From positions 1 to 36,459 of the forward strand of contig JAKAJS010000161.1 of the NCBI GenBank assembly GCA_021813685.1: 36,459 nt of DNA. Direction: 5' to 3'. The notes under the pieces are model-generated. The model had not been told where the DNA came from. It saw only the letters and a program-made list of their open reading frames with translations, and did no database searches. Positions 8,490-27,283 of the stretch are shown here, piece after piece. A program made the position numbers and the translations under genes. The stretch comes from Deltaproteobacteria bacterium. Its GTDB lineage: Bacteria; Desulfobacterota; Syntrophobacteria; Syntrophobacterales; Syntrophobacteraceae. Positions within the stretch are counted from its first letter, which is position 1. Each line of letters starts with the position of its first letter.

Positions 8490-8523
8490 CTTCCCGCTCC
8501 CCGCTTCCCGCTTCCTGCTTCTG
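8490..8523. repeat. heptamer-type simple repeat (GGAAGCG-like)
   Basis: Tandem imperfect units read on the plus strand as TTCCCGC, TCCCCGC, TTCCCGC, TTCCTGC, TTC. The same unit appears at 11549-11627. It fills the gap between serA and dinG. Slippage-prone short tandem repeats of this heptamer type are known from several bacterial genomes; no function is visible here. Confidence 0.7.
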
Positions 8524-10142: not shown

Positions 10143-11504
10143 TCATAATTTGTACTCCTTAAGCTTGCGCCACAGAGTGGTGCGCGGAATATCAAGCAGC
10201 TTGGCCGCCATGCCCTTGTTGTAGCCGGTCCGCTCGAGGACCTTGGCGATATAGCGTTTTTCGAACTCGGCGAGCGGCAGAAGCCCTTCGCCTTCAACGG
10301 TGTTGAACTCGAGGTTCTGAATGTCCCGGGGCAGATCGTGCTGACAGATCTGATCGCTATCGGCAAGGGCCACCGCCCTCTCGATGATGTTTTCAAGCTC
10401 TCGTATATTTCCGGGGAAAGAATAGGTCATGAGAATATTGAGCGCCTGAGGCTCAATGCCCCGTATCTTTTTGCGGAAAGCCCGGCTGTATTTTTCGAGG
10501 AAATGATCGACCAGGAGCGGAATGTCTTTGCTGCGCTCGCGCAGCGCCGGCAAAGTGATGCTCACGACGTTTAAACGGTAGAAAAGATCCTCGCGGAAGT
10601 TTCCGAGCGTGACTTCATGCTTCAGGTCCCTGTTGGTTGCCGCGATGATGCGGATGTCCAGGTCTATGGGGCGAACGCCCCCCACACGCAGGATGCGTCT
10701 TTCCTGGAGGACGTGCAGCAGCTTTACCTGCATGGAGAGCGGCATCTCGCCGATCTCGTCCAAAAACACCGTTCCCTGCGAGGCCGATTCGAGCAACCCG
10801 ATCTTGGCGGCCGTTGCGCCCGTAAACGCCCCCTTCTCGTAGCCGAAAAGCTCGCTGCTGATCAATTCGTCCGTGAATCCTCCGCAGTTGAAGCATACGA
10901 AGGGGTGGTTTTTCCTGGGGCTCAACTGGTGGATCGCCCTGGCCACCAGCGCCTTGCCCGTGCCGCTTGCCCCCTGGAGCAAAATGTTGCAGTCGACCGG
11001 GGCGATCTTTTGCACCATCGAAAAAATCTTTCTCACTGCCGGGCTTGTCCCGACGATCGTGCTCAGTCCGATTGCGCCAAGGTCGTCCGCTCCCCCCCCG
11101 AGCGGTCCGAAAAGCGAAGGGTTTCCCCGGCACATGACGGCCCTGGCGATCGCGCTCCTGCAAAGCGTTCGGAGCTCGTTCAGTTTCAAGGGCTTTTCCA
11201 CATAATGGTAGGCCCCCTCCCGGATGGCCTCCACCGCTCCGTCAATGCTCCCATGGCCCGTCATCAGGATCACTTCCGTTTCATTGCGAAACGCCTTGCT
11301 TTGGGCTAGGATGTCCATCCCGCTCGCATCCGGCAGATGCCTGTCGCAAAACACCACATCGAAGGGGGCCTCCCGCATCCGCTCCAGATACGGCACGCCG
11401 CTCGTAAAGGCTTCGACCTCCAGACCCTCCCTGGAAAGAGCCAGGCTCAGCCGTCGGCAAACGGCCGCCTCGTCGTCCAGTATCGCCACCCGCGCGTGCT
11501 GCAT
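10143..11504 (-). CDS. sigma-54-dependent response regulator, NtrC family
   Basis: 453 residues from the ATG at 11504; a longer in-frame extension upstream reads through simple repeats and is rejected. The receiver has DDE at 10-12, phospho-acceptor Asp54 (CDRHLPDASG) and Lys in VEKPLKL. The AAA+ domain has Walker A GASGTGKA, the canonical GAFTGA sigma-54 loop, Walker B GTVFLDEIGEM and the arginine-finger region FREDLFYRLNVV. The C-terminal Fis helix-turn-helix reads LLDIPRTTLWRKLKEY. It lies 26 bases after a sensor kinase on the same strand. The gene divergent to that kinase has a perfect -24/-12 promoter, so this activator is the obvious candidate to drive it. Confidence 0.94.
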   Translation of the reverse strand: MQHARVAILDDEAAVCRRLSLALSREGLEVEAFTSGVPYLERMREAPFDVVFCDRHLPDASGMDILAQSKAFRNETEVILMTGHGSIDGAVEAIREGAYHYVEKPLKLNELRTLCRSAIARAVMCRGNPSLFGPLGGGADDLGAIGLSTIVGTSPAVRKIFSMVQKIAPVDCNILLQGASGTGKALVARAIHQLSPRKNHPFVCFNCGGFTDELISSELFGYEKGAFTGATAAKIGLLESASQGTVFLDEIGEMPLSMQVKLLHVLQERRILRVGGVRPIDLDIRIIAATNRDLKHEVTLGNFREDLFYRLNVVSITLPALRERSKDIPLLVDHFLEKYSRAFRKKIRGIEPQALNILMTYSFPGNIRELENIIERAVALADSDQICQHDLPRDIQNLEFNTVEGEGLLPLAEFEKRYIAKVLERTGYNKGMAAKLLDIPRTTLWRKLKEYKL

Positions 11505-11530: not shown

Positions 11531-13084
11531 TCAATGAAAGGGTTCGGAGCGCTTCTCGCTTCCCGCTTCCCGCTCCCCGCTTCCCGCTTCCGCCTGCTCG
11601 CTTCCCGCTTCCTGCTCCTCGCTCCTTTCGGCAGCCGGAAGCAGAACCGAAAAAACAGTGCCGACTCCCACCTCGCTTTTTACCTCGATCCGCCCCCCGT
11701 GTCTTTGTACGATGGAGTAGACAACAGACATCCCCAACCCCGTCCCTTGCCCGGCCTCCTTGGTGGTAAAAAAGGGCTCGAAGATGCGCTCCAGCGTCTT
11801 TGCATCCATCCCCTCCCCGGTGTCCCGGACATCGAAGCAAATAAGGTCAGGCGGTTCCTCTCGTACTTCTACCGTTATGGTTCCCCCGTTGGGCATCGCC
11901 TGCACACTGTTGAGGAAAAGGTTTGAGAAAACCTGCTGCAGGCTTCTGAAATTTCCCCGCACCGGTCGCATTCCTTCCGGGATCCGAACGTCGAGTTTTA
12001 CCCCTGCGAGCGCGGCGTGGTTCTTTACGAGCGCAACCGTGCTGCCGATGATCTCTGCGGCATCGACGCTCGCTCTTCTCCTTTGCTGGGTGCGCGCAAA
12101 ATCCAGAAGATTTTTCACAATACCGCACGCCCGCTCCGACTGCGTGAGAATATCTCCGATCAGTTCCCTGGCTTCTCCATCCATCCGGTCCTCGTACTCT
12201 TCCAGGTAGCTCTCGGCGGTGAGAGAAATGTTGTTCAGGGGGTTATTGAGCTCATGGGCTATCCCGGCTGTAAACGTACCCAACGCGGCCATCTTCCTTG
12301 CCTGCAGCAGGTGCTCCTGGTTGGCTTCCAGCTCCCGGGCCATCCGGTCGAAAGCATCGAGCAACCCGTGCATTTCGTCTGTTTGCAATCCTTCGTAGCT
12401 GCCGGGGCTGTAGGTGCCTCTGGCCACCCCCTGGATCGTGTTCTGGAGCACTTTGAGGGGACGCAGCAAACCCAGGGAGATCAACCTCATGATGAGCAGC
12501 ATGAGCAAAAAGAAGACTCCGAGAAAAGCGAAGGGCAGCCACAAAACGTTTGCGATCGCCTTTTGGGTCTCCTTCTGTTTGAGGCGCAGAAAGGTCGTGG
12601 CAAAATCGGTCAACTCCCTTCCCTGCCGGCGCATCAGCGCGCCATCCCCCGCGGGTTCTCCGCTGGTGAGGTACAGATTCTGCGTCTTTACGTACCCGGC
12701 CAGGACACCGCTGAACTCTTGGTACGTCTTTCGGGTGGCGATGCTCACGATGTCCCCGGAAAGATCCGAAACGAGGGAACCGATCTTGTCGAGGTAGAGT
12801 TTTCCCTCTAAAAGATTGGAACGGTCTTTGTAGAGAAGGTAGTTCTTTTCGTATCGACGCACTTCCAGTACATTATCCAGAAGTTCATAGTAGCGGTCTT
12901 CCAGGAAAAGATGGTGCTTCAGCCTGGAGAGATTCCAAAAATCCATGACGGTTAACGCGGATACCGACAGGAAGGTTACCGTGAAAAGAACGAATATCTG
13001 TCCTTTTATGGAGCCCAGCAGCCACCGGAGCGACTGAGTTTGCAGGAAACGCGGAAGATGCGGCAACGGGGTGAATTCGCTCAT
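11531..13084 (-). CDS. sensor histidine kinase, HAMP type, with repeat-encoded C-terminal tail
   Basis: 517 residues from the ATG at 13084, preceded by GGGAGAAG; the frame is open further upstream but without kinase-like sequence. Architecture: TM1 (about 28-48), a helical extracytoplasmic domain (about 50-180) with the motif RRYEKNYLLYKD, TM2 (about 181-205), HAMP, HisKA with His277 in AHELNNPLNN, and HATPase with NLFLNSVQAM, DTGEGMD and GTGLGMSVV. HELNNPL kinases are typical partners of NtrC-type regulators. The last ~30 residues (EEQEAGSEQAEAGSGEREAG...) are encoded by a heptamer DNA repeat and form a charged low-complexity tail outside the catalytic domain. Confidence 0.93.
   Translation of the reverse strand: MSEFTPLPHLPRFLQTQSLRWLLGSIKGQIFVLFTVTFLSVSALTVMDFWNLSRLKHHLFLEDRYYELLDNVLEVRRYEKNYLLYKDRSNLLEGKLYLDKIGSLVSDLSGDIVSIATRKTYQEFSGVLAGYVKTQNLYLTSGEPAGDGALMRRQGRELTDFATTFLRLKQKETQKAIANVLWLPFAFLGVFFLLMLLIMRLISLGLLRPLKVLQNTIQGVARGTYSPGSYEGLQTDEMHGLLDAFDRMARELEANQEHLLQARKMAALGTFTAGIAHELNNPLNNISLTAESYLEEYEDRMDGEARELIGDILTQSERACGIVKNLLDFARTQQRRRASVDAAEIIGSTVALVKNHAALAGVKLDVRIPEGMRPVRGNFRSLQQVFSNLFLNSVQAMPNGGTITVEVREEPPDLICFDVRDTGEGMDAKTLERIFEPFFTTKEAGQGTGLGMSVVYSIVQRHGGRIEVKSEVGVGTVFSVLLPAAERSEEQEAGSEQAEAGSGEREAGSEKRSEPFH
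11549..11627. repeat. heptamer-type simple repeat inside the kinase 3' end
   Basis: Imperfect tandem CTTCCCG/CTCCCCG units on the plus strand (minus: GCGGGAAGCGGGGAGCGGG). The array codes in frame for the acidic/Gly-Ser tail of the sensor kinase and ends just before its stop. It uses the same unit as 8490-8523. Unit-number change would shift or truncate the tail without harming the kinase core. Confidence 0.75.
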
Positions 13085-13228
13085 GGACTTCTCCCGGTAA
13101 GGGAAACCGTGTGTGTGCATCCCGGAAGCAGGCCACCAGGGGCGGAGCCGGGAGCAGGGGGGCGGGAGGCGGGCGTCCTGCCTCTGGCGTTTCACATTGA
13201 GACGGAGAGCACGGCTCATCGCGACAGG

Positions 13229-13247
13229 TTGTTCCACTTTGAAACAA
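13229..13247. promoter_or_regulatory. inverted repeat, possible activator (UAS) site
   Basis: TTGTTCCACTTTGAAACAA is an inverted repeat (TTGTTnC-N5-GnAACAA) 75 bp upstream of the -24 element. A shorter palindrome GAACA-A-TGTTC lies at 13296-13306. NtrC-type activators bind dyads about 80-150 bp upstream of sigma-54 promoters, so the first site is well placed. The link to the neighbouring regulator is inferred. Confidence 0.4.
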
Positions 13248-13322
13248 ACCCTTCCCTGGCGTTCAATTATATGACGTCCGCCCCGCCAAGTAAACGAACA
13301 ATGTTCCGGGTTTTCTCCCGTT

Positions 13323-13337
13323 TGGCACACCGATTGC
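13323..13337 (+). promoter_or_regulatory. sigma-54 (-24/-12) promoter
   Basis: TGGCACACCGATTGC: TGGCAC, five bases, TTGC. The invariant GG (13324-13325) and GC (13336-13337) are separated by exactly 10 bases. Transcription would start near 13349, leaving a leader of about 19 bases before the ATG at 13368. It faces the Usp-TauE-TIGR02186 genes and stands next to a divergent kinase and sigma-54 activator. Confidence 0.85.
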
Positions 13338-13367
13338 GATACGGAATGGGAAAAGGGGAAAAAGCCT

Positions 13368-13808
13368 ATGGAACGAATTCTTGTGAGCATGGATTGCCGA
13401 AGCGGGGGGTGGGAGGCACTGGCGCGGGCCGTTTCCCTTTCCGCAAGGATAGAGGCCAAAGTGTATGCACTTTTGGTGACACCGTCACCCACAGTGGTCG
13501 AAAGCGGGGCGGAGGCAATCTGCGGAGCCGTTTTGGAGCGGCTTGAAAAACTCGTCCAGACGGCAAGGGCCTCGGGGGTTCCCATCGAGTGTTTCGTCAC
13601 CGAGGGCGATTACGAGGAAGAAGTCAACCGGTTCGTCGACTGTAATCGGATCACGCTGGTAATAGTCGAACGACCCGATGAAAAAGACCCTCTGGCCGAG
13701 CGGAAACTGGGTCAGATTCGCAGCATTCAGCATCGCATATCCTGCCGGGTTGAACTGGTCAGCCCGCGCAAACTCAATCCGGAGAAAGGGAGGAATCAAC
13801 CGTCATGA
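13368..13808 (+). CDS. single-domain universal-stress-like protein, degenerate nucleotide loop
   Basis: 146 residues starting MERILVSMDCRSGGW. The alternating strand-helix pattern and the strand ITLVIVERPDE fit a UspA-like alpha/beta fold. The G-x2-G-x9-G(S/T) ATP loop is not visible: the region after LVIVERPD reads EKDPLAERKLGQIRSI. It is the first gene after the sigma-54 promoter and overlaps the TauE/SafE gene by 4 bases (ATGA), so it is translationally coupled to it. By inference it is a non-ATP-binding regulatory or stress partner of the transporter. The family call is moderate. Confidence 0.7.
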   Translation: MERILVSMDCRSGGWEALARAVSLSARIEAKVYALLVTPSPTVVESGAEAICGAVLERLEKLVQTARASGVPIECFVTEGDYEEEVNRFVDCNRITLVIVERPDEKDPLAERKLGQIRSIQHRISCRVELVSPRKLNPEKGRNQPS

Positions 13809-14740
13809 GCCTGTTCCATATGTATCTTCCAATTGCGGGAAACTCCGTCAACGTTCTTTTGATCCTGGCCCTGGGGATCGGTGTGGGTTTACTCTCGGGG
13901 CTATTCGGGGTGGGCGGCGGTTTCCTCATGACGCCCCTGTTGATCATGGTAGGCATTCCGCCGACCGTTGGGGCAGCGACCGATTCCAACCAGATCGTCG
14001 GGGCTTCGACATCGGGGACCCTGGCCCATTTTCGCATGGGAAACGTCGACTTTAAAATGGGATGGCTGCTGCTTCTGGGAGGCATCGCCGGGGGCACGGT
14101 GGGGGTTGCGATCATCAAGGTCCTGCGGGCGATGGGCAACGCCAATTTCCTGATCCAGGTCTGCTACGTGGTCATGCTCGGGGTGATCGGGGCCTACATG
14201 TTCGCCGAAAGCTTACAAGCCCTGCGTAAGACGCGCAAGGAAACGGCTCCGCCCCCGACGGCCAGAAAAGAATCGCTCTACGCGCGCATCGTAAAAAGAC
14301 TTCCCTGGCAAACCGACTTCGAGCGCTCCGGCGTGCGCCTTTCGGTGCTCCTGCCCCTCATCCTCGGCTGCTTTGTCGGGATCCTCGCCGCCATCATGGG
14401 GGTCGGGGGAGGATTCATCATGGTGCCGGTAATGGTCTACCTGCTGCGCATGCCCATGCACGTCGTCGTGGGAACGAGCCTGTTCCAGATTCTTTTCACC
14501 TGCATTGATGTTACAATCATGCAGTCGTGGCAAAATCACACGGTCGACTTCGTTCTGGCCCTGCTGCTGCTCATCGGCTCCTCGGTGGGCGCGCAGATCG
14601 GCGCAAGGCTCGGCAAGAAACTGCGCGGCGATCAGCTGAAAATACTTCTGGCCACCATCGTACTTCTCGTCTGGTTTCAGATGCTCTACGGACTCATCGC
14701 CCGGCCCGGGATTCTGCTGGCCTATGTAAAAGGACACTGA
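13805..14740 (+). CDS. TauE/SafE family membrane permease (sulfite exporter-type)
   Basis: 311-residue polytopic membrane protein with two homologous halves, each carrying the family glycine motif: GLLSGLFGVGGGFLMTPLL near residue 30 and GILAAIMGVGGGFIMVPVM near 200, with about eight predicted transmembrane segments. TauE/SafE proteins export small anions such as sulfite, sulfoacetate or related organosulfur compounds; the substrate here is unknown. Both VGGG motifs are intact and the length is normal. It overlaps the Usp-like gene by 4 bases and is followed after 2 bases by the TIGR02186 gene. Confidence 0.92.
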   Translation: MSLFHMYLPIAGNSVNVLLILALGIGVGLLSGLFGVGGGFLMTPLLIMVGIPPTVGAATDSNQIVGASTSGTLAHFRMGNVDFKMGWLLLLGGIAGGTVGVAIIKVLRAMGNANFLIQVCYVVMLGVIGAYMFAESLQALRKTRKETAPPPTARKESLYARIVKRLPWQTDFERSGVRLSVLLPLILGCFVGILAAIMGVGGGFIMVPVMVYLLRMPMHVVVGTSLFQILFTCIDVTIMQSWQNHTVDFVLALLLLIGSSVGAQIGARLGKKLRGDQLKILLATIVLLVWFQMLYGLIARPGILLAYVKGH

Positions 14741-14742
14741 AA

Positions 14743-15492
14743 ATGAAAACACGATACCTCATGCTCCTTGCGGCCCTGTGTGTTTTCACCGCCTCCTCCG
14801 CCTTTGCGCAGAAGGCCGCCGGCCTTGCGATAAACCCGAGTTCCATCAACATCGGAACATTCTACGACGGCATCACCCTCACCGCCACCGGCTCCATCCC
14901 TGCGGACAGCGAGGTCGTCGTGCGCTTTCTCGGCGCCACGTCGGAGATTCACCTCAAACAGGTGGGAAAAGTCGGCGGCCTCGTGTGGATGAACCTGGGT
15001 TCGGTCACGTTCAAGGATGCCCCCGCGGTCTGCATAGTCTCCTCGGCAGTGGATTTCAACCACCTTGAGGCAAACAACCTGAGACTCACCGGGTTGAAAA
15101 ACTCCATGAGGCTCGATGCACAAGGGGATCGCAATGACGATGTTTTCGCCGAATTCATCAAGCTGAAAAAGAAGGAAGGGCTCTACCGCGAGATGACCGG
15201 AAACATCACCTATGCGAAGGCCGCCAACGGACAGAAAACCTTCCGGGCGCTCATTCCGCTTCCCTCCCGGCTAAAACCCGGAACCTACACGGTCGATGTC
15301 GCCGCAGTACAAAACGGCCGGATCGTCGCCCATGCCGAAAAGACGCTCGAGGCCAAACTCGAAGGGCTCCCGGCCCTCATGTCCGCCATGGCCTTCAACC
15401 ACTCGATCCTCTACGGGGTCTTTGCTTCGATTATCGCACTGCTCGCCGGCCTCGGGATCGGACTGGTCTTCCAGAGCAAGGGGGCGCATTGA
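14743..15492 (+). CDS. TIGR02186 (PF09608) exported, C-terminally anchored protein
   Basis: 249 residues from the ATG at 14743, 2 bases after the permease stop. A signal peptide (1-22, ending SSAFAQ) is followed by a beta-rich domain starting INPSSINIGTFYDGITLTATG, a feature of the TIGR02186 family, and one C-terminal transmembrane helix (about 222-243, SILYGVFASIIALLAGLGIG). The protein would face the periplasm, anchored at its C-terminus. The family is typically found beside TauE/SafE permeases, suggesting an accessory role in anion handling; the biochemical function is unknown. Confidence 0.85.
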   Translation: MKTRYLMLLAALCVFTASSAFAQKAAGLAINPSSINIGTFYDGITLTATGSIPADSEVVVRFLGATSEIHLKQVGKVGGLVWMNLGSVTFKDAPAVCIVSSAVDFNHLEANNLRLTGLKNSMRLDAQGDRNDDVFAEFIKLKKKEGLYREMTGNITYAKAANGQKTFRALIPLPSRLKPGTYTVDVAAVQNGRIVAHAEKTLEAKLEGLPALMSAMAFNHSILYGVFASIIALLAGLGIGLVFQSKGAH

Positions 15493-15540
15493 GGTGACGG
15501 CGAAAGCGAAAAGCGAGGGGATAAGAACGCGGGGAGCTGT

Positions 15541-15660
15541 GCCCCCCGCACCCCCACGGGTTCCGGATTGCGGGGCGATGCCCCGCAATCCGGAGCGCCA
15601 AATGAGCCGCGTAGCGGCGTGGGGGTGCAGGGGGCGCTAGCCCCCGCGCTTTTCACCCTT
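15541..15660 (+). repeat. nested palindromic repeat, copy 2; attenuator-like fold
   Basis: Four pairings are visible. 15541-15557 pairs with 15619-15635 at 16 of 17 positions. Inside, TCCGGATTGCGGGGC (15562-15576) pairs perfectly with 15580-15594 around a GAT loop, and GCCGC-GTA-GCGGC forms at 15606-15618. GGGGGC-GCTA-GCCCCC (15630-15645) followed by GCGCTTTT looks like a terminator and competes with the outer stem. The 3' part (15597-15660) is a near-identical copy of 1092-1150. It lies 19 bases before the phosphotransferase start codon. Confidence 0.75.
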
Positions 15661-15678
15661 CCCCCCCAGGAGGAATGC

Positions 15679-18306
15679 ATGGACATCGTTCGCGGGCTCA
15701 AGAAGATTTTCTCTTTCCGGTCCTCTTCGAACCCGGTTTTGCCTTTCAGCGTGCTCTTTAAAAAATTCCGGAGCATTCTGGAGCGAAACAACCTCATCCT
15801 GGAGCTCATGGCCGACATGGGCGACAAGCTGGGGGGAGAGTACATCTTCGACAGCCAGTACATCATAGACATTTCCGAAAAAATCGGCGACCTGGTCTTT
15901 AAGCTCATCTCCGACCTGTGCGTCATGACGCAGGACGAGATCGTCGACCTGTTCATCGCCTTCGAACGCATCCAATTCGAGATCCAGGAAGAACTGGCGG
16001 GCAGGAGGGCCTTTCCGGTGACTAAACCGGTGCTCCTTCTGGAAGAATTGGGGGCCGATTTCCAGGAGGAGGCGGGAAACAAGTTCGCAAACCTCGGGGA
16101 ACTGCGCAACACGCTGGGGCTGCCCACTATGGACGGCTTTGTGGTAACGACCAGGGCCTTTTTCGATTTCATGGAGGCCAACGGTCTGTTTGCTCATATA
16201 GAAAAAGGGCTTGCCGCGCTCGACCCGGCCGACGACGCGGCCATGGAAGCCTTTTGTGACGAGGTGCGCGGGCGGATCCTTTCCGGGGCCATGCCCGCAC
16301 ACGTGGTCTCGGCCATCCATGCGGCGCTCGATATTGTGTGCGGAAGATCCGGGGGCGAGGCGGCGCGGTTTGCCGTGCGCAGCAGTGCCTGGGGCGAAGA
16401 TAGCGAGTTCAGTTTCGCCGGCCAGTATGACAGCGTGCTAAATGTGCCGAGAAAGAAAATCCCGGATGCCTGGCGGGAAGTGGCGGCAAGCGCCTACGCG
16501 CCCGAAGCGTTGCGCTACAGGCTTCACAGGGGCTACCGGGAAAGCGAGACGGCGATGGCGGTCGGCTGCCAGGTGATGGTGGAAGCCGAGGTGAGCGGGG
16601 CGATGTACACCTATGCGCCGGTGGCCGCGGAAACCGAGGCCATGGTGATCAGTGCGGCCTGGGGCCTTGGCGTTGCCGTTGTGAGCGGGGTTGCCGAATC
16701 GGACACCATTTTTCTCGACCGCCTTCCTCCCCACCGGATTCTCTCCATCGAACCGGGACACAAGACAACGAAAATGGTCGGCGTGCAGCACGGCGGGACG
16801 GCCTGGATCGATACGCCGCAAGAACTGCAGGACGCTGTGTGCCTTTCCGAGGACTCCATCCGCAGGCTCGCCGAGGTGGCGGTAATGATCGAGAAATACT
16901 ACAGGCGCCCGCAGGATATCGAGTGGGCCTTCGACAGCCGGGGAAATCTCTACATCCTGCAATCGAGGCCTCTCAATGTGCGCCCCGACCAGCCCGAGCG
17001 CCACATGGTCCATATCGACAACGCGGCCCTTTCCGCGCAGGTTCTTTTCTCGGGCAAAGGGACGGTGGTTCAGGGGGGGATCGGCTCCGGAAAGGTCTAC
17101 GTGACCACCTCCGACGAGGACTTGAAGGATTTCCCCTTCGGAGCGGTTCTTGTCGCCCGCCATACCTCTCCCCGGTATTCGCGCATCATGCGCAGGGCAC
17201 AGGCCATCCTTACCGACGTCGGTTCGGCCACCGGCCACATGGCTACCCTTGCCAGGGAATATCGCGTCCCGACGGTTGTGGACACCGGAATCGCCACAAA
17301 GGTGCTCAAAACGGGGGATGAGGTGACCCTGGACGCCATCCGCAATGTCGTCTATGCGGGCACGGTGAAAGAACTGAGCCAGTTTGAGATCACCCACGAA
17401 GAGGTCTTCGAAGACACCTACGAATACCGCATGCTGAGAAGAGTGCTAAAGAAGGTGACCCCGCTCAATCTCGTCGATCCCAACTCAGAATCCTTCCGGG
17501 CTGCCCGCTGTCGGACCTGGCACGACATCACCCGGTTTGTTCATGAAAAAGCGGTTGAGAGTCTCATCGTTTTAAGCGAGAATTACCAGCGTCTTCAGGA
17601 CAGGAGTTCCCGGCGGCTGGAGTTCTCCATTCCGCTCGGCCTTATGATAATCGATATCGGCAAAGGAACGAACGCACCGGCCACAGCCCGCTCCATTGCG
17701 CTCGAGCAGATTGAATCGATCCCCATGAAGGCGCTCCTGGAGGGACTCCAGGAAAGCGGCATGTGGGAAACCGCGCCGGCCGCGGTAGATATCGGCAGCT
17801 TCATGTCGAGCCTGACCCGTACCTTCAGTTCCTCGATGGCCGGGCCGGAGGACGTTGGAAGAAATCTGGCGGTCCTCTCCGACAACTACATGAACCTGCA
17901 CCTCAGACTGGGATATCACTTCAATATCCTGGACGCCTACATTGGGGAGGAGCTAAACGATAATTATATTTATTTCCGCTTCCTCGGTGGAGTCTCCAAC
18001 ATCGAACGCCGCTCCCGCCGGGCGCAGTTTATCGCCGATGTAATGGAGGGCTTCGATTTCCGTGTCGAAATCCACGGGGATCTGATCGTAGGCAGGCTCA
18101 AGAAATTGACAAAAGAGCTTATGGTCGGCAGGATGAAAGTCCTTGGCGGCCTGATAGGCTATACGCGCCAACTCGATGTCGATATGACCGGCGATGAGAG
18201 GGTCGATTTCCATCTGGCCGAATTCATGCGCAGGATTCAGGTTCTTAAGGAGGTAAGCGAGGATGCCCCCATGTGCGAGTTGCACCCGACTCTTGATTCT
18301 GGATGA
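15679..18306 (+). CDS. PEP-synthase/PPDK-like protein without the PEP-binding barrel
   Basis: 875 residues from the ATG at 15679 with AGGAGG 5 bases upstream. Residues 1-110 are helical and unrecognised. Residues about 115-435 are the PPDK/PEP-synthase ATP-binding domain, with FAVRSSAWGEDSEFSFAGQYDSVLNV (shown here in parts: FAVRSSAWGED and SFAGQYDSV), EVSGAMYTYAP and QDIEWAFD...ILQSRPL. Residues 450-570 are the swivelling phosphohistidine domain with His520 in GSATGHMATLAREY. The C-terminal PEP/pyruvate TIM barrel is absent; residues 575-875 are a helical domain I do not recognise. It may transfer phosphate from ATP through His520 to an unknown acceptor. The next gene, a receiver-only regulator, overlaps its end by 44 bases. 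Confidence 0.85.
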   Translation: MDIVRGLKKIFSFRSSSNPVLPFSVLFKKFRSILERNNLILELMADMGDKLGGEYIFDSQYIIDISEKIGDLVFKLISDLCVMTQDEIVDLFIAFERIQFEIQEELAGRRAFPVTKPVLLLEELGADFQEEAGNKFANLGELRNTLGLPTMDGFVVTTRAFFDFMEANGLFAHIEKGLAALDPADDAAMEAFCDEVRGRILSGAMPAHVVSAIHAALDIVCGRSGGEAARFAVRSSAWGEDSEFSFAGQYDSVLNVPRKKIPDAWREVAASAYAPEALRYRLHRGYRESETAMAVGCQVMVEAEVSGAMYTYAPVAAETEAMVISAAWGLGVAVVSGVAESDTIFLDRLPPHRILSIEPGHKTTKMVGVQHGGTAWIDTPQELQDAVCLSEDSIRRLAEVAVMIEKYYRRPQDIEWAFDSRGNLYILQSRPLNVRPDQPERHMVHIDNAALSAQVLFSGKGTVVQGGIGSGKVYVTTSDEDLKDFPFGAVLVARHTSPRYSRIMRRAQAILTDVGSATGHMATLAREYRVPTVVDTGIATKVLKTGDEVTLDAIRNVVYAGTVKELSQFEITHEEVFEDTYEYRMLRRVLKKVTPLNLVDPNSESFRAARCRTWHDITRFVHEKAVESLIVLSENYQRLQDRSSRRLEFSIPLGLMIIDIGKGTNAPATARSIALEQIESIPMKALLEGLQESGMWETAPAAVDIGSFMSSLTRTFSSSMAGPEDVGRNLAVLSDNYMNLHLRLGYHFNILDAYIGEELNDNYIYFRFLGGVSNIERRSRRAQFIADVMEGFDFRVEIHGDLIVGRLKKLTKELMVGRMKVLGGLIGYTRQLDVDMTGDERVDFHLAEFMRRIQVLKEVSEDAPMCELHPTLDSG

Positions 18307-18676
18307 TGAGCCCATAGTGTGCAAGCGGCTCAAACCCGCCTTCCAGAAGGCCGGCTACGAAGTCGAGACCTTCACCGACAGCGCCTCCGCCCTGGAAAGA
18401 ATCGAGGAGCAACGCTTCGATGTCGTCATTACCGACCTCAAAATGGAAGGAATCGATGGACTCCGTTTTCTTGCCCGGGTAAAAGAGCTCTACCCCGACA
18501 CGGGCATCATCGTCATCACCGGATTCGCCACCTCCGATACCGCGAAGGAATCCTTCCGGAAGGGCGCCTTCGATTTCGTAGCCAAGCCCTTTAAGCTGGG
18601 CGATATTATTGATTCGGTTCGCCGCTTCGAAGAGAGCAGGGCTTCAAGCCCCCCGGAGGAGAGCCGGAAAGAATGA
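18263..18676 (+). CDS. receiver-only response regulator
   Basis: 137 residues starting in the end of the phosphotransferase gene, with AAGGAGG about 10 bases before the ATG. A single CheY-like receiver: DDE at 14-16, phospho-acceptor Asp58 (TDLKMEGIDG), a conserved Thr/Ile strand IIVITGFAT and Lys in VAKPFKLGD; after it only a short charged tail ending SRKE. There is no output domain. It resembles the receiver of the sigma-54 regulator at 10143-11504 (both LDDE...VCxRL and F(T)xS patterns), so it may compete for the same kinase or act on the phosphotransferase. These links are inferred. Confidence 0.88.
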   Translation: MPPCASCTRLLILDDEPIVCKRLKPAFQKAGYEVETFTDSASALERIEEQRFDVVITDLKMEGIDGLRFLARVKELYPDTGIIVITGFATSDTAKESFRKGAFDFVAKPFKLGDIIDSVRRFEESRASSPPEESRKE

Positions 18677-18734
18677 AAAATCCGCGAAAGAGCCGCCTGC
18701 CGGTTGGGCCGAGCGAAGCGATGCCCGGCTCGCT

Positions 18735-19574
18735 ATGATCCGATTTGAGAATTTGCAGAAAAGATACAACCGGGTCGAAGCGCTTAGAGGCGTAAGCCTC
18801 GAGGTCGGTACGGGAGAGTTGTTTGCGTACCTGGGGCCCAACGGTTCGGGCAAGACGACGACCATAAAGATTCTTACCTGCCTCGCGGTCCCGTCCGCCG
18901 GCGACGCATGGCTAAACGGCTTTCACACGGGAAAACAAAGTCTTCAGGCAAAGCGCCAATGCGGAGTCGTTCCCCAGAACATCAACCTCGACAATGAACT
19001 CACGGTGCGCGAAAATCTCGATCTTCACGGAAAACTCTTCCAAATGGGTCGAAAAGAACGTGCGGGGCGCATCGCGGAAATCCTCGAATACATCGAGCTT
19101 TCAGACAGGATAGACAGCTCGGTAAAAACCCTCTCCGGCGGGCTCAAAAGGAGAGTCATGATCGCGCGGGCTCTCATGCACTCCCCCCGCATACTATTTC
19201 TGGACGAGCCGACCGTGGGCCTCGATCCGGCCATCCGGCGCAGGATCTGGTCTCTTGTCAAGAACATCCAGCAGAGTGGAACGACGATTTTTCTCACCAC
19301 CCATTACATCGAAGAAGCGGAATTTCTGGCCGACCGGGTGGCATTCCTGGACGAGGGGAAAATTGTGGCTCTCGACACCCCGCAAAATCTTATGCACTCG
19401 ATGGGCGAGTGGGCACTCGACACGCTCGGCGACGGCCGCATGGAGACGCTCTATTTTGCGGACAGAAACGAGGCCCAAAGGCACCTGTCCGACTCCCGGG
19501 CGGGTTTTTCCCTGAGGCGCGTAAATCTCGAAGATGTCTTCATCGCCCGCACCGGCCGGAGAGTCACGCCATGA
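18735..19574 (+). CDS. ABC transporter ATP-binding protein (ABC-2/DrrA-NodI type)
   Basis: 279 residues from the ATG at 18735 (MIRFENLQKRYN), where homology begins; upstream in-frame sequence looks non-coding and no strong ribosome site is visible. Walker A GPNGSGKTTT, Q-loop VVPQNINLDNELTVREN, signature LSGGLKRRV, Walker B RILFLDEPTVGLDP and switch His in LTTHYIEEAE are all present. A short C-terminal extension (about 215-279) is typical of drug/polysaccharide-type exporters. The permease start overlaps its stop (ATGA). It is 58 bases after the receiver gene and probably in the same operon. Confidence 0.93.
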   Translation: MIRFENLQKRYNRVEALRGVSLEVGTGELFAYLGPNGSGKTTTIKILTCLAVPSAGDAWLNGFHTGKQSLQAKRQCGVVPQNINLDNELTVRENLDLHGKLFQMGRKERAGRIAEILEYIELSDRIDSSVKTLSGGLKRRVMIARALMHSPRILFLDEPTVGLDPAIRRRIWSLVKNIQQSGTTIFLTTHYIEEAEFLADRVAFLDEGKIVALDTPQNLMHSMGEWALDTLGDGRMETLYFADRNEAQRHLSDSRAGFSLRRVNLEDVFIARTGRRVTP

Positions 19575-20305
19575 GCGGCATGTTCGCGATTTATCTCCGG
19601 GAGATGCTGATCCTGCGAAAGAGGCTTTTGCGGCAGCTGGCCTCGATGTCGGTGAGCCCGCTTCTCTACCTGGCGGCCTTCGGGTTTGGCATGGGGCGGG
19701 GGGTAAAAGTCGGCGCGCACTCCTACCTCGAGTTCCTGATCCCGGGGCTCGTCGCCATGACCAGCATGACCCAGGCCTTCGCCATCGGAAGCGAAATAAA
19801 CATAGCGCGTTTCTATTGGCACATTTTCGAAGAGTTTCAGGCTGCGCCCATAACCAACATTTCCTATGTGGCCGGGGAGGTGCTTGCGGGGGTGACGAGG
19901 GCGCTTTTTTCCGTTCTCCTGATTGTTGCGATTGCGGCCGTCTCCGGCGTGAGCCTTTCCTACAACCTCTATTTCTGGGTCGCAGCCGGGCTTAACAGCT
20001 TCGTTTTCGCCTCTCTTGCCGTCGGCCTCGCGATGCTCGTAAAATCCCATTCCGATCAGGCGCTTCTCACCAATTTTTTCATCACTCCGATGGCCTTTCT
20101 CGGAGGAACCTTTTTCCCCGTCGCCCGAATGCCGACGTGGGTGCAGCGGATTCTCTATTTCCTCCCTCTCACCCACGCCTCCGAGGCCATCCGGACGGCT
20201 GCCTTCGGAGAGCGCCCCCCGGGCTCTTCTTTTCTCGTTCTTGCCGCACTCGGAACCCTTCTTTTCATCTTCGCCTTTCTCTCCGTCAAACGGTCGCTGG
20301 AGTAG
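19571..20305 (+). CDS. ABC-2 type transporter permease
   Basis: 244 residues with six predicted transmembrane segments, including an N-terminal amphipathic start (MSGMFAIYLREMLILRKRLL) and the ABC-2 signature region FLGGTFFPVARMPTWVQRILYFLPLTH. Paired by a 4-base overlap with the ATPase, it would form a two-gene exporter. The substrate is not evident; DrrB/NodJ-type permeases export drugs, polysaccharides or lipids. Its presence in the sigma-54 gene string suggests export linked to the upstream phosphotransfer genes, which is inference. Confidence 0.92.
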   Translation: MSGMFAIYLREMLILRKRLLRQLASMSVSPLLYLAAFGFGMGRGVKVGAHSYLEFLIPGLVAMTSMTQAFAIGSEINIARFYWHIFEEFQAAPITNISYVAGEVLAGVTRALFSVLLIVAIAAVSGVSLSYNLYFWVAAGLNSFVFASLAVGLAMLVKSHSDQALLTNFFITPMAFLGGTFFPVARMPTWVQRILYFLPLTHASEAIRTAAFGERPPGSSFLVLAALGTLLFIFAFLSVKRSLE

Positions 20306-20429: not shown

Positions 20430-20445
20430 TGGCACGCTACTTGAC
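20430..20445 (+). promoter_or_regulatory. near-consensus sigma-54 promoter candidate
   Basis: TGGCACGCTACTTGAC matches TGGCACG-N4-TTG fully except that the -12 GC is GA. The GG is at 20431-20432 with the right 10-base spacing. The same stretch contains TTGACA (20441-20446), a good sigma-70 -35 hexamer, but no good -10 lies 17 bases on. It would drive the small gene at 20540. The -12 deviation makes it weaker than the 13323 promoter. Confidence 0.45.
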
Positions 20446-22950: not shown

Positions 22951-22981
22951 CAGCGACCTTTTTACGGACTATATTTGGTCC
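22947..22981 (+). promoter_or_regulatory. sigma-70 promoter with overlapping operator for the toxin-antitoxin genes
   Basis: TTGACA (22947-22952), a 17-base spacer and TATATT (22970-22975): a near-perfect sigma-70 promoter. An inverted repeat GGAC-N8-GTCC (22966-22981) covers the -10 element. This is the expected place for autorepression by the antitoxin or antitoxin-toxin complex. The GGAG ribosome site follows at about 22992. Confidence 0.75.
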
Positions 22982-23001
22982 TACCAGGATGGAGGCATAT
23001 C

Positions 23002-23277
23002 ATGAAACTGACCAGTCAAATAAAGCCGATCAGCTATCTCAAGACGCATGCCGCTGAGATCGTACGCACAATGGGGGATAAACAGGAACCCTTGATCATC
23101 ACCCAGAACGGCGAAGCCAGGGCAGTCCTGCAGGACATTGAAAGTTATGAGCAAACGCAGGAAACTATGGCGCTTCTGAAAATTCTGGCGTTAGGTGCTC
23201 GTCAGATCGATGAAGGTCGGGTCGTGTCCGCGACCAACGCCATCCAGGGGGTTCGTGAGCGTAGAAGGGCTCGCTGA
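23002..23277 (+). CDS. type II antitoxin, Phd/YefM family
   Basis: 91 residues from the ATG at 23002 with GGAGG 7 bases upstream. The N-terminus KPISYLKTHAAEIVRTM and EPLIITQNGEARAVLQDIESYEQ form the Phd/YefM DNA-binding fold; the C-terminal part (about 60-91) is charged and would wrap the toxin. It should neutralise the neighbouring ParE/RelE-like protein and repress the shared promoter through the operator over the -10 element. The toxin start overlaps its stop by one base, the normal coupling for such pairs. Confidence 0.9.
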   Translation: MKLTSQIKPISYLKTHAAEIVRTMGDKQEPLIITQNGEARAVLQDIESYEQTQETMALLKILALGARQIDEGRVVSATNAIQGVRERRRAR

Positions 23278-23603
23278 TGCCATTTCAGGTATTCCTGACC
23301 GACGACGCTGTCCGTGATCTGGAAGATTTATACGATTACATCGAAAAGCACGATGCACCAGGAAAGGCGAATTATGTTCTCGAACAGATTGAAAAGGGAT
23401 TCGCCAGTCTGTCTGAAAATCCCCAACGCGGAACCTGCCCCAAGGAACTGCTGACCATTGGAATTCGGGAGTACCGGAAGATTTTTTTCAAACCATACCG
23501 CATCATTTATGGTGTCATGGCCGAGGCGGTCTACGTCATGGTGATCGCCGACGGTCGACGGGATATGCAGACGCTGCTTCAACGCCGCTTGCTGCTTGGA
23601 TGA
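23277..23603 (+). CDS. type II toxin, RelE/ParE family
   Basis: 108 residues of normal RelE/ParE length: FQVFLTDDAVRDLEDLYDYIEKHD, ENPQRGTCPKELLTIGIREYRKIFFKPYRIIY (key residues NPxRG, EYR and YRIIY) and ADGRRDMQTLLQRRLL. The ERRxYR-like strand and the terminal R-R-D-x-Q-T-L-L pattern match ParE-type proteins, which poison gyrase, although some relatives cut mRNA; the target cannot be decided here. All family positions look intact, so the pair is probably functional. It may stabilise the adjacent mobile DNA. Confidence 0.9.
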   Translation: MPFQVFLTDDAVRDLEDLYDYIEKHDAPGKANYVLEQIEKGFASLSENPQRGTCPKELLTIGIREYRKIFFKPYRIIYGVMAEAVYVMVIADGRRDMQTLLQRRLLLG

Positions 23604-24231: not shown

Positions 24232-24662
24232 AGCTCGTACTCGTTGTCGACGAGGCATCGCTTCTGCGGTTGGAAGTTTTCGCGGAGATCCACACCCTGT
24301 GTCAGTTCGATCTCGATTCCAAACCGTGGTTGCCGATCGTTTTCGCCGGACAGGCGCACCTTATAGATAAGCTGATGTATCCGGGATCAAAGCCCCTGGC
24401 CTCAAGAATCGTTGCAAGGTCCCATCTTGAAGGCGCCGACCGCAATCAGATGGAAAGCTATCTTTTGCATCACCTCAAACTGGCCGGGATAAAAAGAAAC
24501 CTTTTTGAAGAAGCCGCCGTCACGGCCATCCACCAGGGCTCGGCGGGGCTTTTCAGGAAGGCGAACCACCTGGCCAGAGGCTCGCTCATAGCCGCGGCTC
24601 AAAGCCAATGCGCGGTAGTGGGCTCAGAACACGTGCGGATCGCTTCCACCGAGCTTTTTTGA
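24228..24662 (+). pseudogene. C-terminal half of an ExeA/TniB-like AAA ATPase
   Basis: 144 residues starting at MKLVLVVDEASLL, the Walker B strand with DEA. Then sensor and lid parts follow: PIVFAGQAHLIDKL, SRIVARSHLEGADRNQME, GIKRNLFEEAAVTAIHQ, GLFRKANHLARGSLIAAA. The Walker A loop and the N-terminal half are missing, so it cannot bind ATP on its own. Full proteins are about 260-280 residues. They act with DDE transposases to select target DNA, in the way TniB or TnsC do. The cut falls at the junction with the DUF6431 gene. Confidence 0.8.
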
Positions 24663-24682
24663 AGATCATGAAAAAGATCTTC
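24661..24682. repeat. inverted repeat over a start codon
   Basis: GAAGATC (24661-24667) and GATCTTC (24676-24682) form a perfect 7-bp palindrome with the ATG of the primase-domain gene in the loop. In RNA it would expose or hide the start codon; on DNA it could be a protein site. Confidence 0.5.
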
Positions 24683-25477
24683 CGAAAGATCGGCGACTAC
24701 TTCGGTTTTTCCTGGCGGTTGGCTGTTTTGGACCTGGAAAAGGGGCGCTGGATCGTAGAGCCCACCCCGGAAAGGATCGGCTACCTCAAAGCCGAAAACG
24801 CCAACGGCAGGCATATCCTTATGCAACCGGCCGATGAGTCCCGGTATTTACTCGCCGATGACCTTTGCTGGGAACGGATATGCCGGCAGCACAGACACAG
24901 CAACAGCACCTGGAAGCCGGGGCGGATGGTGGTTGAGACCTCGCCTCAAAACTACCAGGTGTGGATTCGATGCCAAGAAGAATTATCCCTTGCTCAAAAG
25001 CGCTACTGGTTAAAAAGGCTTGGCAGCGACCCCGGAGCGGCCCCGAACAACCGATGGGGTCGCTGTCCAGGCTTCCGCAACCGCAAAGACAAACATCGCC
25101 AAGCAAACGGGCAATACCCCCTCGCCAAGCTGATCTGGATAGATTGGACCTCGCAGGCTCGAGTACCACCAATAATCGTAGGGGCGCCGATTCCTGATGA
25201 GACTCTTTCCCATCCACCCCCAAGGGGGGCTGCGTGTCATAGGAATAATATCTGCCGCTCGGACTATGACAGAGGAGGTGAGTCCCAGACCGATTTTGCT
25301 TATGCTTTGGCGCTCGCCCGCAGGGGGCATGGAGAAGATGAAATCCGCAGTCGCTTGTTGTCGGAGAGAACATGTTGGGACAATCATGCCGGCCACAGAA
25401 GGATCGATCTTTATCTGGATAGAACCATCAGAAAGGCAAAAAAAATCGCAGAGAAAACGCGGCATCCGTCCAAATAA
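24668..25477 (+). CDS. RepB-type DNA-primase-domain protein (transposon cargo)
   Basis: 269 residues from the ATG at 24668, 5 bases after the ATPase fragment. The RepB_primase-like domain spans about 15-175: LAVLDLEKGRWIVEPTPERIGYL (key residues DLEKG), NGRHILMQPAD, VVETSPQNYQVWI (the S-P-x-N-Y-Q strand) and RWGRCPGFRNRKDKH. The C-terminal segment (about 205-265) reads SDYDRGGESQTDFAYALALARRGHG with a helical tail. Such proteins occur on plasmids and in DDE/ExeA transposons. It seems complete, unlike its neighbours. A role in element replication or regulation is inferred. Confidence 0.75.
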   Translation: MKKIFRKIGDYFGFSWRLAVLDLEKGRWIVEPTPERIGYLKAENANGRHILMQPADESRYLLADDLCWERICRQHRHSNSTWKPGRMVVETSPQNYQVWIRCQEELSLAQKRYWLKRLGSDPGAAPNNRWGRCPGFRNRKDKHRQANGQYPLAKLIWIDWTSQARVPPIIVGAPIPDETLSHPPPRGAACHRNNICRSDYDRGGESQTDFAYALALARRGHGEDEIRSRLLSERTCWDNHAGHRRIDLYLDRTIRKAKKIAEKTRHPSK

Positions 25478-25712: not shown

Positions 25713-27095
25713 ATGAAGAGAATCCTGACGGTTGCACTATCCGTTTTATTTATTTTGGGGCTCGCCTACGGAGGGGCCAGTTACTGGATCGGGAGTCAGG
25801 CGCGCAGGTTCCATGACCAGAGCATCGCGCGAATAAACGGGTCAAAAGATCTCAAGGCATCGGTTATCAGCTATACACGCGGCCTTTTCAGCTCCAGGGC
25901 GATAACCCGGCTCACGGTAAGGCCTTCCCGAAAGGGCAGTCCCATCAGTTTCGAAGTCGTTGACACGATCTATAACGGCCCCTTTGTCTTTTTGCATGAC
26001 CCGCACCTCCGGGACGGCCTTCGACCCGTTATGGCGGTCGTTCGGACGCGGCTTGCACCCGGCCCGGACACGGGAGCGGTGCTCAAAGAAATCCCCGAGC
26101 TTGCCTACGCCGAGGTGCTGACGGTGCTCACGCTGGGCGGCAATGCCTCCTCCTATCTGGATATCCCTGCTTTCCAACACAGTTTCCCGGACCACAAGGG
26201 CGGACAAACAGCGGTGAAATGGGGCGGCCTCACCGGCAAGATCCACTTCGACTCCCGGCTCTCGAAGGCCGACGGCTCGCTAAACTGTCCCTCGCTGCTC
26301 GTCTCGGGGCAGGACGGTCAGCTGCAAGTAGAAAACGTACGCGGGCGATTCGGTTCCCACCCCGGAATACAGGGAATAACCGTAGGATCGACTTCTGTCT
26401 CCATAGGCGACATCAAATCGATAAAAGACGGCCATAGCGTGTTCACCCTGAGTTCAGCAGATCTGCGCGCCCAATCCAGGGTCGAGGGGAAAAAAATTAG
26501 CGGCTCCATTCGACTCGATTTTGGCAAACTCGACACGGGCGGCCTGGGGCTTGGCCCCTTTGCGATCGATATCGAGGCTCGAAGGCTGGATGCGGGGGTT
26601 CTCGCCAGGTTTCAAAAACTAGCCCCGGTCTTGCAGCGGGAGGAAATACAAAACGATAAGGCGGCAAAATACCAGGCGAGGATACTGCTGCTCAAAATGG
26701 CGGCCGATCTGCTCGCAGGGCGCCCGGAACTGGAGATAAAACAGCTCGATTTGAGAACGGAGAAAGGAGACCTCACCGGCACGGCCAGGCTTGGTTTTGA
26801 CGGTGCAGACAAGGGGTTTTCCCGAAACATCCTGCTGCTTTTGGCGAGTATGGATGCGAACGCTCAACTCTCCGTCTCCCAGGCGCTTTTCTATTTCGTC
26901 GCTCAAAATGCGCTCGATAAAAATGGGGCTTCCGGTGCGGATCAGGCCAAGACGGACGCTGCAAACCTCGCCGCACGTTTTTTGGCCGCAAAGTATATGA
27001 TTTCCGAGGCGGGGGCCTTCAAATCCAGCGCTGCCTTCAAACACGGGGTTCTCACCGTCAACGGGAGCAGGCTGGGACTTTCAAAACTGCCCTGA
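25713..27095 (+). CDS. DUF945 (YdgA-like) exported protein
   Basis: 460 residues: an N-terminal signal anchor (about 1-24, ILTVALSVLFILGLAYGGASYWIG) then the DUF945 pattern GSQARRFHDQSIARIN, SYTRGLFSSRAITRLTVRP and YNGPFVFL, and a long beta-rich body ending FKHGVLTVNGSRLGL. YdgA-like proteins are periplasmic or inner-membrane-anchored, function unknown. The conserved H/Q-rich N-terminal motif and the final NG-x-L strand are present. No operon partner is close; the next gene is 188 bases downstream. The length is close to the family norm. Confidence 0.85.
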   Translation: MKRILTVALSVLFILGLAYGGASYWIGSQARRFHDQSIARINGSKDLKASVISYTRGLFSSRAITRLTVRPSRKGSPISFEVVDTIYNGPFVFLHDPHLRDGLRPVMAVVRTRLAPGPDTGAVLKEIPELAYAEVLTVLTLGGNASSYLDIPAFQHSFPDHKGGQTAVKWGGLTGKIHFDSRLSKADGSLNCPSLLVSGQDGQLQVENVRGRFGSHPGIQGITVGSTSVSIGDIKSIKDGHSVFTLSSADLRAQSRVEGKKISGSIRLDFGKLDTGGLGLGPFAIDIEARRLDAGVLARFQKLAPVLQREEIQNDKAAKYQARILLLKMAADLLAGRPELEIKQLDLRTEKGDLTGTARLGFDGADKGFSRNILLLLASMDANAQLSVSQALFYFVAQNALDKNGASGADQAKTDAANLAARFLAAKYMISEAGAFKSSAAFKHGVLTVNGSRLGLSKLP

Positions 27096-27193
27096 AGCAC
27101 AGCTCTTGTGTTCCGTTTTCTCCTCATTATATTTACTGCGTGAGCAGTGACCAGCCGTAGGCCCTGGAACGATCGGAGGACTTGCACTTAAGT

Positions 27194-27212
27194 CCCCCTT
27201 TGGAAAAGGGGG
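27194..27212. repeat. CCCCCTTT palindrome
   Basis: CCCCCTTT-GGA-AAAGGGGG, a perfect 8-bp stem, followed by more G. Same type as the weaker palindrome at 1043-1059. It lies in the 188-base gap between the DUF945 and DUF5752 genes and is probably a dispersed repeat. Confidence 0.6.
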
Positions 27213-27283
27213 GGAAACCGGTCCTGTGACTCTGCGCCCTTTCGTTTCTGTTTTGCCTCTAAACATCCGGGAATCAGGAACAG

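Follow-up and report, generated by a model that had tools for sequence, protein, structure and literature searches.

A sigma-54-associated gene module that joins a TauE/SafE permease to a barrel-less PEP-synthase-like protein in sulfur bacteria

Results

A conserved gene module on contig JAKAJS010000161.1 of a Deltaproteobacteria bacterium (Syntrophobacteraceae; GCA_021813685.1) is best read, with a probability of about one half, as an anion permease complex of sulfate reducers that is under sigma-54 and two-component control and is governed by a dikinase-like phosphotransfer protein; for both substrate and phosphate acceptor, we infer the candidates given below. The best reading also holds that the module is self-contained and belongs to dissimilatory sulfur bacteria. 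Its core comprises a histidine kinase, an activator, a Usp, a TauE, a TIGR02186-like protein, a barrel-less PEP-synthase-like protein (PEPL) and a receiver. The studied module lies at positions 13323 to 20305 of the contig, whose 36,459 nt form the window. No description of this gene set was found in the open-access literature searched, including under TIGR02186 and PF09608.

The genes are tightly packed, with overlaps of 4 nt between Usp and TauE, 44 nt between PEPL and the receiver, and 4 nt between the ABC ATPase and permease, and a gap of 2 nt between TauE and the TIGR02186-like gene. The sequence-only reading had described same-strand genes with overlaps or short gaps, which held except for a 186-nt gap (15493-15678) 5' of PEPL that consists mostly of inverted repeats. 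The divergent kinase and sigma-54 activator that it had noted are both present. A defence system was considered and rejected, as PADLOC gave no match for PEPL, TauE or the TIGR02186-like protein, and only the usual ATPase matches for the ABC ATPase.

Table 1. Features of the module and its flanks in the window.
Feature	Position	Strand	Evidence and remarks
NtrC-type response regulator/enhancer-binding protein (receiver, sigma-54 AAA with GAFTGA, Fis HTH)	10143..11504	-	Pfam over cut-off
Membrane sensor histidine kinase (HisKA, HATPase_c)	11531..13084	-	Pfam over cut-off; orthologues adjoin module
Putative upstream activating palindrome 1, GTTTCACATTGAGAC	13189..13203	+	Sequence comparison; 1 of 5 exact places in own genome
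Putative upstream activating palindrome 2, GTTCCACTTTGAAAC	13231..13245	+	Sequence comparison; 42 bp from palindrome 1
Sigma-70-like promoter TTTACT-17-TATAAT for divergent kinase-activator genes	13266..13294	-	10/12 bases; kept in L113-L115 and L118
Sigma-54 promoter TGGCAC-N5-TTGC (TGGCAC-ACCGA-TTGC at 13323-13337)	13323..13338	+	GG-N10-GC spacing; expected start near 13349
Usp-like protein	13368..13808	+	PF00582, 30.5 bits (cut-off 24)
TauE/SafE (TSUP) permease, C-terminus -KGH	13805..14740	+	PF01925, 174.6 bits (cut-off 32.6)
TIGR02186-like/PF09608 protein, C-terminus -KGAH	14743..15492	+	PF09608, 135 bits (cut-off 24.5)
PEPL	15679..18306	+	Helical N-terminal domain 1-115, ATP-grasp (PPDK_N), swivelling phosphohistidine domain (His520), C-terminal domain 574-860
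Single-domain receiver	18263..18676	+	PF00072
ABC transporter ATPase, DrrA-like; local addition, non-core	18735..19574	+	Pfam/NCBIfam matches, neighbourhood comparison
ABC-2 permease; local addition, non-core	19571..20305	+	Pfam/NCBIfam matches, neighbourhood comparison

The sigma-54 pattern matched the whole window 11 times at up to 2 mismatches against 12.2 expected, which is within chance; we took the promoter at 13323 as real on the strength of its conservation across loci. We scanned 27 loci with a sigma-54 consensus under weights of our own choosing; two were cut by contig ends, leaving 25 testable, and 17 of these (the window included) had a site scoring at least 13 of 15 at 23-55 nt before the first gene, while 8 had no good site. 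Upstream starts in the relatives were placed by alignment, with no start codon at the place used in L127 and L128, and L179 and L043, identical in length and gene places, look like one contig. In seven other loci of the same genus (L113-L118, L125) the score was 13.5-15 and the bases between the -24 and -12 elements varied. None of 200 shuffles of the 350-bp upstream region reached the score of the 13323 site. The perfect promoter proposed from the sequence is both present and kept at the same place elsewhere.

GAFTGA is found in the activator of the window and in 18 of 19 relatives, and an activator orthologue adjoins the module in most relatives. The two palindromes upstream of the promoter track an adjacent NtrC-type activator across loci, a comparison in which 13.9 kb was counted as upstream for L123, whose start lies off the contig. 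The pattern was derived from the window together with near relatives, none of which is therefore an independent test of it. At 2 mismatches it occurred 17 times in the window versus 16.7 in shuffles, with no excess, and only exact matches stand out: the whole own genome has 4 per strand, while the reversed pattern, used as a control, gave 0 and 1. The three other exact places, in or near what we take by eye to be ftsA/ftsZ-like, HDOD-like and molybdopterin-oxidoreductase-like genes, were considered as a wider regulon of the activator and read as chance; no sigma-54 site was found in about 3 kb around them. With promoter and enhancer sites both kept across loci in step with the activator, the proposed control of the module by sigma-54 and this adjacent activator is supported at the level of sequence, as the sequence-only reading had anticipated.

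The TauE and TIGR02186-like genes were adjacent in 30 of 30 loci of the phylum. The name TIGR02186 holds at the Pfam level, through PF09608, while the protein falls below the NCBIfam TIGR02186 cut-off (70.2 vs 255.25 bits). By eye it has a signal peptide, a presumably periplasmic domain and a single C-terminal membrane segment. Alphaproteobacteria have an adjacent pair as well, with a TauE 50-54% identical to that of the window; PEPL, a single receiver and a sigma-54 activator are not annotated in the four alphaproteobacterial regions with a gene table, the tables being incomplete. As the pair has no annotated PEPL in those four regions and no adjoining full PEPL in 10 of the 30 phylum loci, it does not need PEPL.

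Both membrane proteins of the module, although unrelated, end in a -G-(G/A)-H tail, which the alphaproteobacterial TIGR02186 proteins lack. In most loci the codons of the TauE tail, -GGH, read GGAGGN right before the next start, so its glycines may be a by-product of a Shine-Dalgarno sequence. Judged by codons, which mostly differ in the TIGR02186-like tail, this explains neither that tail nor the TauE histidine. The Usp ATP-binding motif is G..G.(8-10)G(S/T); it was found in none of 16 relatives of the Usp-like protein and is absent by eye from the window protein.

PEPL matched PF01326 (ATP-grasp) and PF00391 (swivelling phosphohistidine domain) over cut-off, its phosphohistidine residue His520 was kept in 55 of 55 sequences, and Pfam found no PEP/pyruvate-binding barrel family in it, all of which agrees with its description from sequence as a barrel-less PEP-synthase-like protein. 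Residues 116-568 align with PEP synthase (PpsA), from which PEPL differs in this missing barrel family and in a TIGR01418 score of 328.9 bits, short of the NCBIfam cut-off of 739.75. Unlike rifampin phosphotransferase (RPH) and the two-component dikinases HpeHI/PpsAB, which are among the nearest known systems, it is ordered as helical domain, ATP-grasp, swivel and unassigned C-terminal domain, and its neighbours are two-component genes and a permease. Its C-terminal domain had no Pfam match and, searched alone, no convincing match to solved folds in the PDB, where a distant one is possible.

This domain holds 13 invariant residues, His, Glu, Arg and Asp among them, as an active site would. It is conceivable, though we think it rather unlikely, that PEPL is a metabolic small-molecule dikinase, comparable to phenylphosphate synthase or HpeHI, phosphorylating a compound that TauE moves, and that the module is catabolic or detoxifying rather than signalling; barrel-less dikinases of such build are reported to phosphorylate phenols (PMC12167813). 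The neighbourhoods, however, showed no recurring catabolic enzyme but kinases, receivers, Usp-like ORFs, extra PEPL copies and a metallophosphoesterase, and certain genomes in the phylum carry at least nine PEPL copies, which fits regulation better.

The ABC pair begins 58 nt after the receiver and shares its strand; no terminator-like site was listed in the interval, and the sequence-only reading had made it integral to one signalling-plus-export system. Yet it adjoins the receiver only in the window genome; in G032 a distance of about 4.5 kb, with two opposite-strand ORFs, separates the two, and the loci examined from the other relatives, some of them ending about 1 kb past the receiver, gave no exporter of comparable identity. 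There the receiver is followed by Usp-like ORFs, PEPL copies or unrelated ORFs. The pair scores below the NCBIfam cut-offs for a DrrAB-type exporter (drrA 274.1 vs 312.45 bits; drrB 88.3 vs 223.05 bits). Lack of conservation beside the receiver largely refutes an integral exporter, which we regard as highly improbable, and we rejected it as a module part; what stands of that proposal is that permease, phosphohistidine protein and receiver form one conserved unit.

Orthologues of TauE, the TIGR02186-like protein and PEPL occurred in the same 18 of the 39 genomes examined from the order. Across the phylum, the PEPL C-terminal domain was present in 89 of 247 genomes, of which 83 carry dsrA as read by hand from search-result rows; in the own genome no dsrA was found over cut-off. 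The Fisher and permutation tests of co-occurrence ignore relatedness, and the dsrA association may reflect shared phylogeny, not function. Were the dsrA tie one of lifestyle only, the module might serve carboxylates (lactate, pyruvate, acetate) or general energy stress. Usp genes at its head or tail in many loci would suit such a role, as would the case of Desulfovibrio vulgaris, for which one article gives nine sigma-54 operons with TSUP or PSE transporters, two of the PSE transporters being co-regulated with lactate genes (PMC4641369). We consider this unlikely, however: no carbon-metabolism gene was seen in the core among the relatives examined.

Discussion

The permease reading that we favor can be set out in three steps. 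In the first, which is strongly supported by sequence comparison, the kinase would phosphorylate the adjacent NtrC-type activator, which would bind two palindromes that resemble GTTYCA-N3-TGRRAC and lie about 80-130 bp before the sigma-54 promoter, and so turn on as a set the genes for Usp, TauE, the TIGR02186-like protein, PEPL and the receiver. In the second, TauE and the TIGR02186-like protein would form a single inner-membrane transporter for a small anion, the latter giving the periplasmic domain, as their 30/30 adjacency and family membership suggest; exported sulfite or an organosulfonate would be the likeliest substrate. In the third, for which the residues and fold of PEPL argue, PEPL would move a phosphate of ATP onto His520 of its swivelling domain, in the manner of PEP synthase and rifampin phosphotransferase, and from there to an acceptor within the conserved C-terminal domain. 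The receiver would act as the switch, with phosphotransfer governing the permease or its substrate, and we infer that PEPL and the receiver together control the permease. The downstream ABC exporter would be a local addition.

A bolder version, which we hold to be distinctly unlikely, is a hybrid phosphorelay in which PEPL loads ATP phosphate on its swivelling histidine and hands it to the receiver or the permease, gating sulfur-anion movement, with the -G-(G/A)-H tails as docking or acceptor sites. If true, transporters would come under histidine-based control by a third route, in addition to histidine kinases and the PTS.

A close regulatory likeness is to the TSUP/PSE operons of D. vulgaris, where a TSUP permease is likewise under sigma-54 and an enhancer-binding protein; the main text of that article does not contain TauE, phosphoenolpyruvate or universal stress, and as far as its text was covered it gives these sigma-54-controlled permeases without substrate data (PMC4641369). 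TauE did not occur in the passages retrieved from a second sigma-54 article either.

The module is an all-or-none set of genes that comes with a regulator, putative binding sites and a promoter of its own, and its substrate, inducer and partners are therefore testable in one relative; Desulfosarcina cetonica JCM 12296 (locus L055) is a named relative that carries it. To our knowledge, the movement and control of sulfite and related anions in sulfate reducers are poorly understood. PEPL defines a dikinase-like family whose C-terminal domain lacks a Pfam family and a convincing PDB match, and the module points to an undescribed control of the movement of small charged molecules, in which a transporter is joined to an ATP-driven phosphate-transfer protein.

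Conservation of the gene set

The sequence-only reading had proposed a single sigma-54-driven system, and a conserved neighbourhood was borne out by tblastn of the window's genes against loci from relatives. The set of histidine kinase, NtrC-type activator, Usp, TauE, TIGR02186-like protein, PEPL (the barrel-less PEP-synthase-like protein) and receiver recurs among relatives of the same order and in Desulfobacteraceae, and parts of it were also found in Nitrospirae. Eighteen of 39 genomes of the order carried PF09608, and the same 18 carried orthologues of TauE (at least 68% identity; next best 33%) and of PEPL; among these, the PEPL of G023 and the TauE of G035 were cut by a contig end, and the PEPL of G037 had only 40% identity, the orthologue call there resting on its position beside TauE. 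The module was patchy within genera (present in G002 and G004, not in G003), as expected if the unit is gained or lost whole. In the neighbourhoods examined for 30 of the 44 PF09608 matches listed, TauE adjoined the PF09608 gene in all 30 and PEPL lay next to the pair in 19; in L175 one further PEPL is truncated where the contig ends. When the seven genes were compared two by two, their distance matrices correlated in all 21 pairs (r 0.59–0.93; 13–25 loci per pair), with 0 of 999 permutations as high.

Positions and strands of features in the window.
Feature	Position	Strand
NtrC-type activator	10143-11504	-
Histidine kinase	11531-13084	-
Palindrome GTTTCACATTGAGAC	13189	
Palindrome GTTCCACTTTGAAAC	13231	
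Sigma-70-like promoter of kinase gene	13266-13294	
Sigma-54 site of module	13323	
Usp	13368-13808	+
TauE	13805-14740	+
PF09608/TIGR02186-like protein	14743-15492	+
Inverted repeats 5' of PEPL	15515-15661	
PEPL	15679-18306	+
Receiver	18263-18676	+
ABC ATPase and permease	18735-20305	+
Weaker sigma-54-like site	20430-20445	

The window is one entire contig of a 5.06-Mb draft in 285 contigs; among named relatives the genome stands closest to Syntrophobacteraceae and "Deltaproteobacteria" MAGs. In the gap 5' of PEPL, inverted repeats are nested, 44 nt long at 75% and 15 nt long at a perfect match; since the perfect hairpin core occurred, among 234 loci, only in L001, a piece of the same genome, the repeats look like a local insertion. 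Seven-base tandem repeats (unit CGCTTCC) occupy the 3' end of the kinase gene at 11550-11623, with a similar array at 8490-8521 and one of another unit at 29230-29305. Further along lie a Phd/YefM antitoxin and ParE toxin pair (22975-23603) and a RepB-primase-like protein (24608-25477), a mark of a plasmid or mobile element.

Promoter and putative enhancer sites

The key bases of the module's sigma-54 site were exact, and when the region upstream of the module was shuffled 200 times, no shuffled version reached its score (out of 15, on a consensus with our own weights). Over the whole window, the pattern with two mismatches occurred 11 times against 12.2 expected, within chance, so we take the site as real from its conserved position among loci and not from the window count. 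The first comparison comprised 27 upstream regions including the window's, of which two were cut by contig ends. A site scoring at least 13 lay 23–55 nt 5' of the first gene in 17 of the 25 testable regions, upholding the promoter originally read, and was missing in eight (L121, L127, L128, L129, L045, L046, L048 and L053).

Thirty phylum loci formed the second set, which we grouped by PEPL and activator; the background rate was 0.07 sites per 700 bp. Where PEPL and an upstream activator were both present, a site lay within 180 nt in 9 of 12 loci; L170 and L176 scored 12.5, just under threshold, and L181 had none. Five loci have PEPL but show no strong match to the activator within 6 kb (L174, L185, L186, L190, L191; in L185 two partial activator-like matches lie 3–6 kb off), and nine TauE–TIGR02186 loci show no strong match to PEPL (L164-L169, L171-L173; partial PEPL-like matches in L167 and L172); no site was found in either group. 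In L163 and L178 the activator is downstream and the site more than 500 nt away; L175 has no site, and L184, which lacks PEPL, has one 520 nt away. The weaker site 3' of the ABC genes, TGGCACGCTACTTGAC, precedes a small gene with a resemblance to the sll1863 stress family (27.7 bits against a cut-off of 35).

Alignment of the upstream regions of ten loci revealed the two palindromes, 42 bp apart, and the sigma-70-like promoter of the divergent kinase gene. The palindromes were missing in L116 and L118, close relatives in which no activator was found beside the module. In a search of 55 loci with the pattern slightly widened, 45.8 kb of upstream sequence gave 32 occurrences and the other 682.6 kb gave 9, a 53-fold excess. 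The widened pattern was present in 18 of the 31 loci whose activator lies within 6 kb, versus 3 of 23 with none at that distance (L041, L127 and L186; the L127 activator lies ~7 kb downstream). Five places in the whole genome carry the exact pattern, two of them at the module; with two mismatches allowed it was not enriched in the window (17 versus 16.7 expected). These sequence comparisons support one module with one sigma-54 promoter and dedicated putative enhancer sites.

Genes downstream of the receiver

The ABC exporter had also been counted into the system, and this was not borne out. The ABC pair follows the receiver in the window, while L117, L119, L120 and L053 have one or two more PEPL copies and then a metallophosphoesterase, L121, L123, L043, L052 and L129 have Usp-like ORFs (by eye), and other loci have unrelated ORFs; the contigs of L113 and L115 end ~1 kb past the receiver. 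Because these genes vary among loci, the exporter is best read as a local addition. The metallophosphoesterase, calcineurin-like (Metallophos) at L117:109-816 and assigned by sequence likeness in the other three, is a possible phosphatase partner. At 25713-32148 the window encodes DUF945, DUF5752, a TreT-like glycosyltransferase and an alpha-amylase-family protein, probably for trehalose synthesis; ORFs resembling the first three (by eye) also lie 3' of the receiver in G029 (L118).

The PEPL protein

PEPL residues 116-568 can be aligned to PEP synthases, but a Pfam search found no PEP/pyruvate barrel family in PEPL. Among 55 sequences including the window's, His520 and Arg234 were invariant and Lys135 was present in 52. 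Residues 574-860, with invariant His615, His622, Glu623, His747, Arg781 and Asp833, gave no Pfam family; a profile search brought up no solved relative, and fold comparison yielded no convincing match. The N-terminal 117 residues likewise gave no Pfam family. In build, PEPL comes closest to RPH and to the two-component dikinases HpeHI and PpsAB (PMC12167813). Among the matches listed, 39 of 92 other PEPL copies in the order (25 genomes) had another TauE-family gene less than 10 kb away, so the PEPL–TauE partnership extends beyond the module.

A shared C-terminal tail

TauE and the TIGR02186-like protein, membrane proteins unrelated to each other, both end in -G-(G/A)-H at the very C-terminus in pairs from the phylum and Nitrospirae. 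TauE ended in histidine in 54 of 55 loci, nearly always as -GGH or -KGH (exception L185), and the TIGR02186-like protein likewise in 54 of 55, mostly as -GAH or -GGH (exception L181). The tail was missing in 12 of 12 TauE paralogues (26–36% identity) unpaired with a TIGR02186 protein. Alphaproteobacterial pairs were sampled at 33 loci, five from named plasmid records and the others from the class to which the Croceibacterium genome belongs; unlike its counterparts in the phylum and Nitrospirae, the TIGR02186 protein there had a terminal histidine in 0 of 31 readable cases, and TauE had one in 5 of 33. Outside these 33, the TauE of L194, an "uncultured proteobacterium" bin, ends in -GGH. The two glycines of the TauE tail may have arisen as a by-product of the ribosome-binding site of the gene that follows, an origin that does not explain the TauE histidine or the TIGR02186-like tail.

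Link to sulfur metabolism

A profile built on the C-terminal domain of PEPL matched in 89 of 247 phylum genomes, dsrA (E <=1e-90; one genome so counted, G266, is below the curated cut-off) in 121 and PF09608 in 39. With relatedness ignored, dsrA was present in 83 of 89 PEPL genomes versus 38 of 158 without PEPL (Fisher 3e-28), and PEPL in 38 and dsrA in 37 of the 39 PF09608 genomes. The six PEPL genomes without dsrA are five that are 62–80% complete and the window's own, a 97% complete draft with no dsrA over the cut-off; as it carries a full-length aprA, the missing dsrA may be an assembly gap. L048 comes from Nitrospiraceae bacterium Ngb-4, which we take to be Nitrospirae Nbg-4. Nbg-4 is reported to have genes for sulfate respiration (PMC5812927).

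Proposed function

The individual parts are of known kinds; the combination, its regulation and a PEPL family with this C-terminal domain were not found in the literature searched. TSUP transporters under sigma-54, resembling the window's TauE in this respect, were already noted in a sigma-54 study of D. vulgaris, which gave their substrate as not known (PMC4641369). We propose that TauE and the TIGR02186-like protein would form a complex, that its cargo would be a sulfur anion, and that PEPL and the receiver would control the complex or its cargo. We give this composite reading, a sigma-54 module serving regulated sulfur-anion traffic through such a complex, a probability of about one half.
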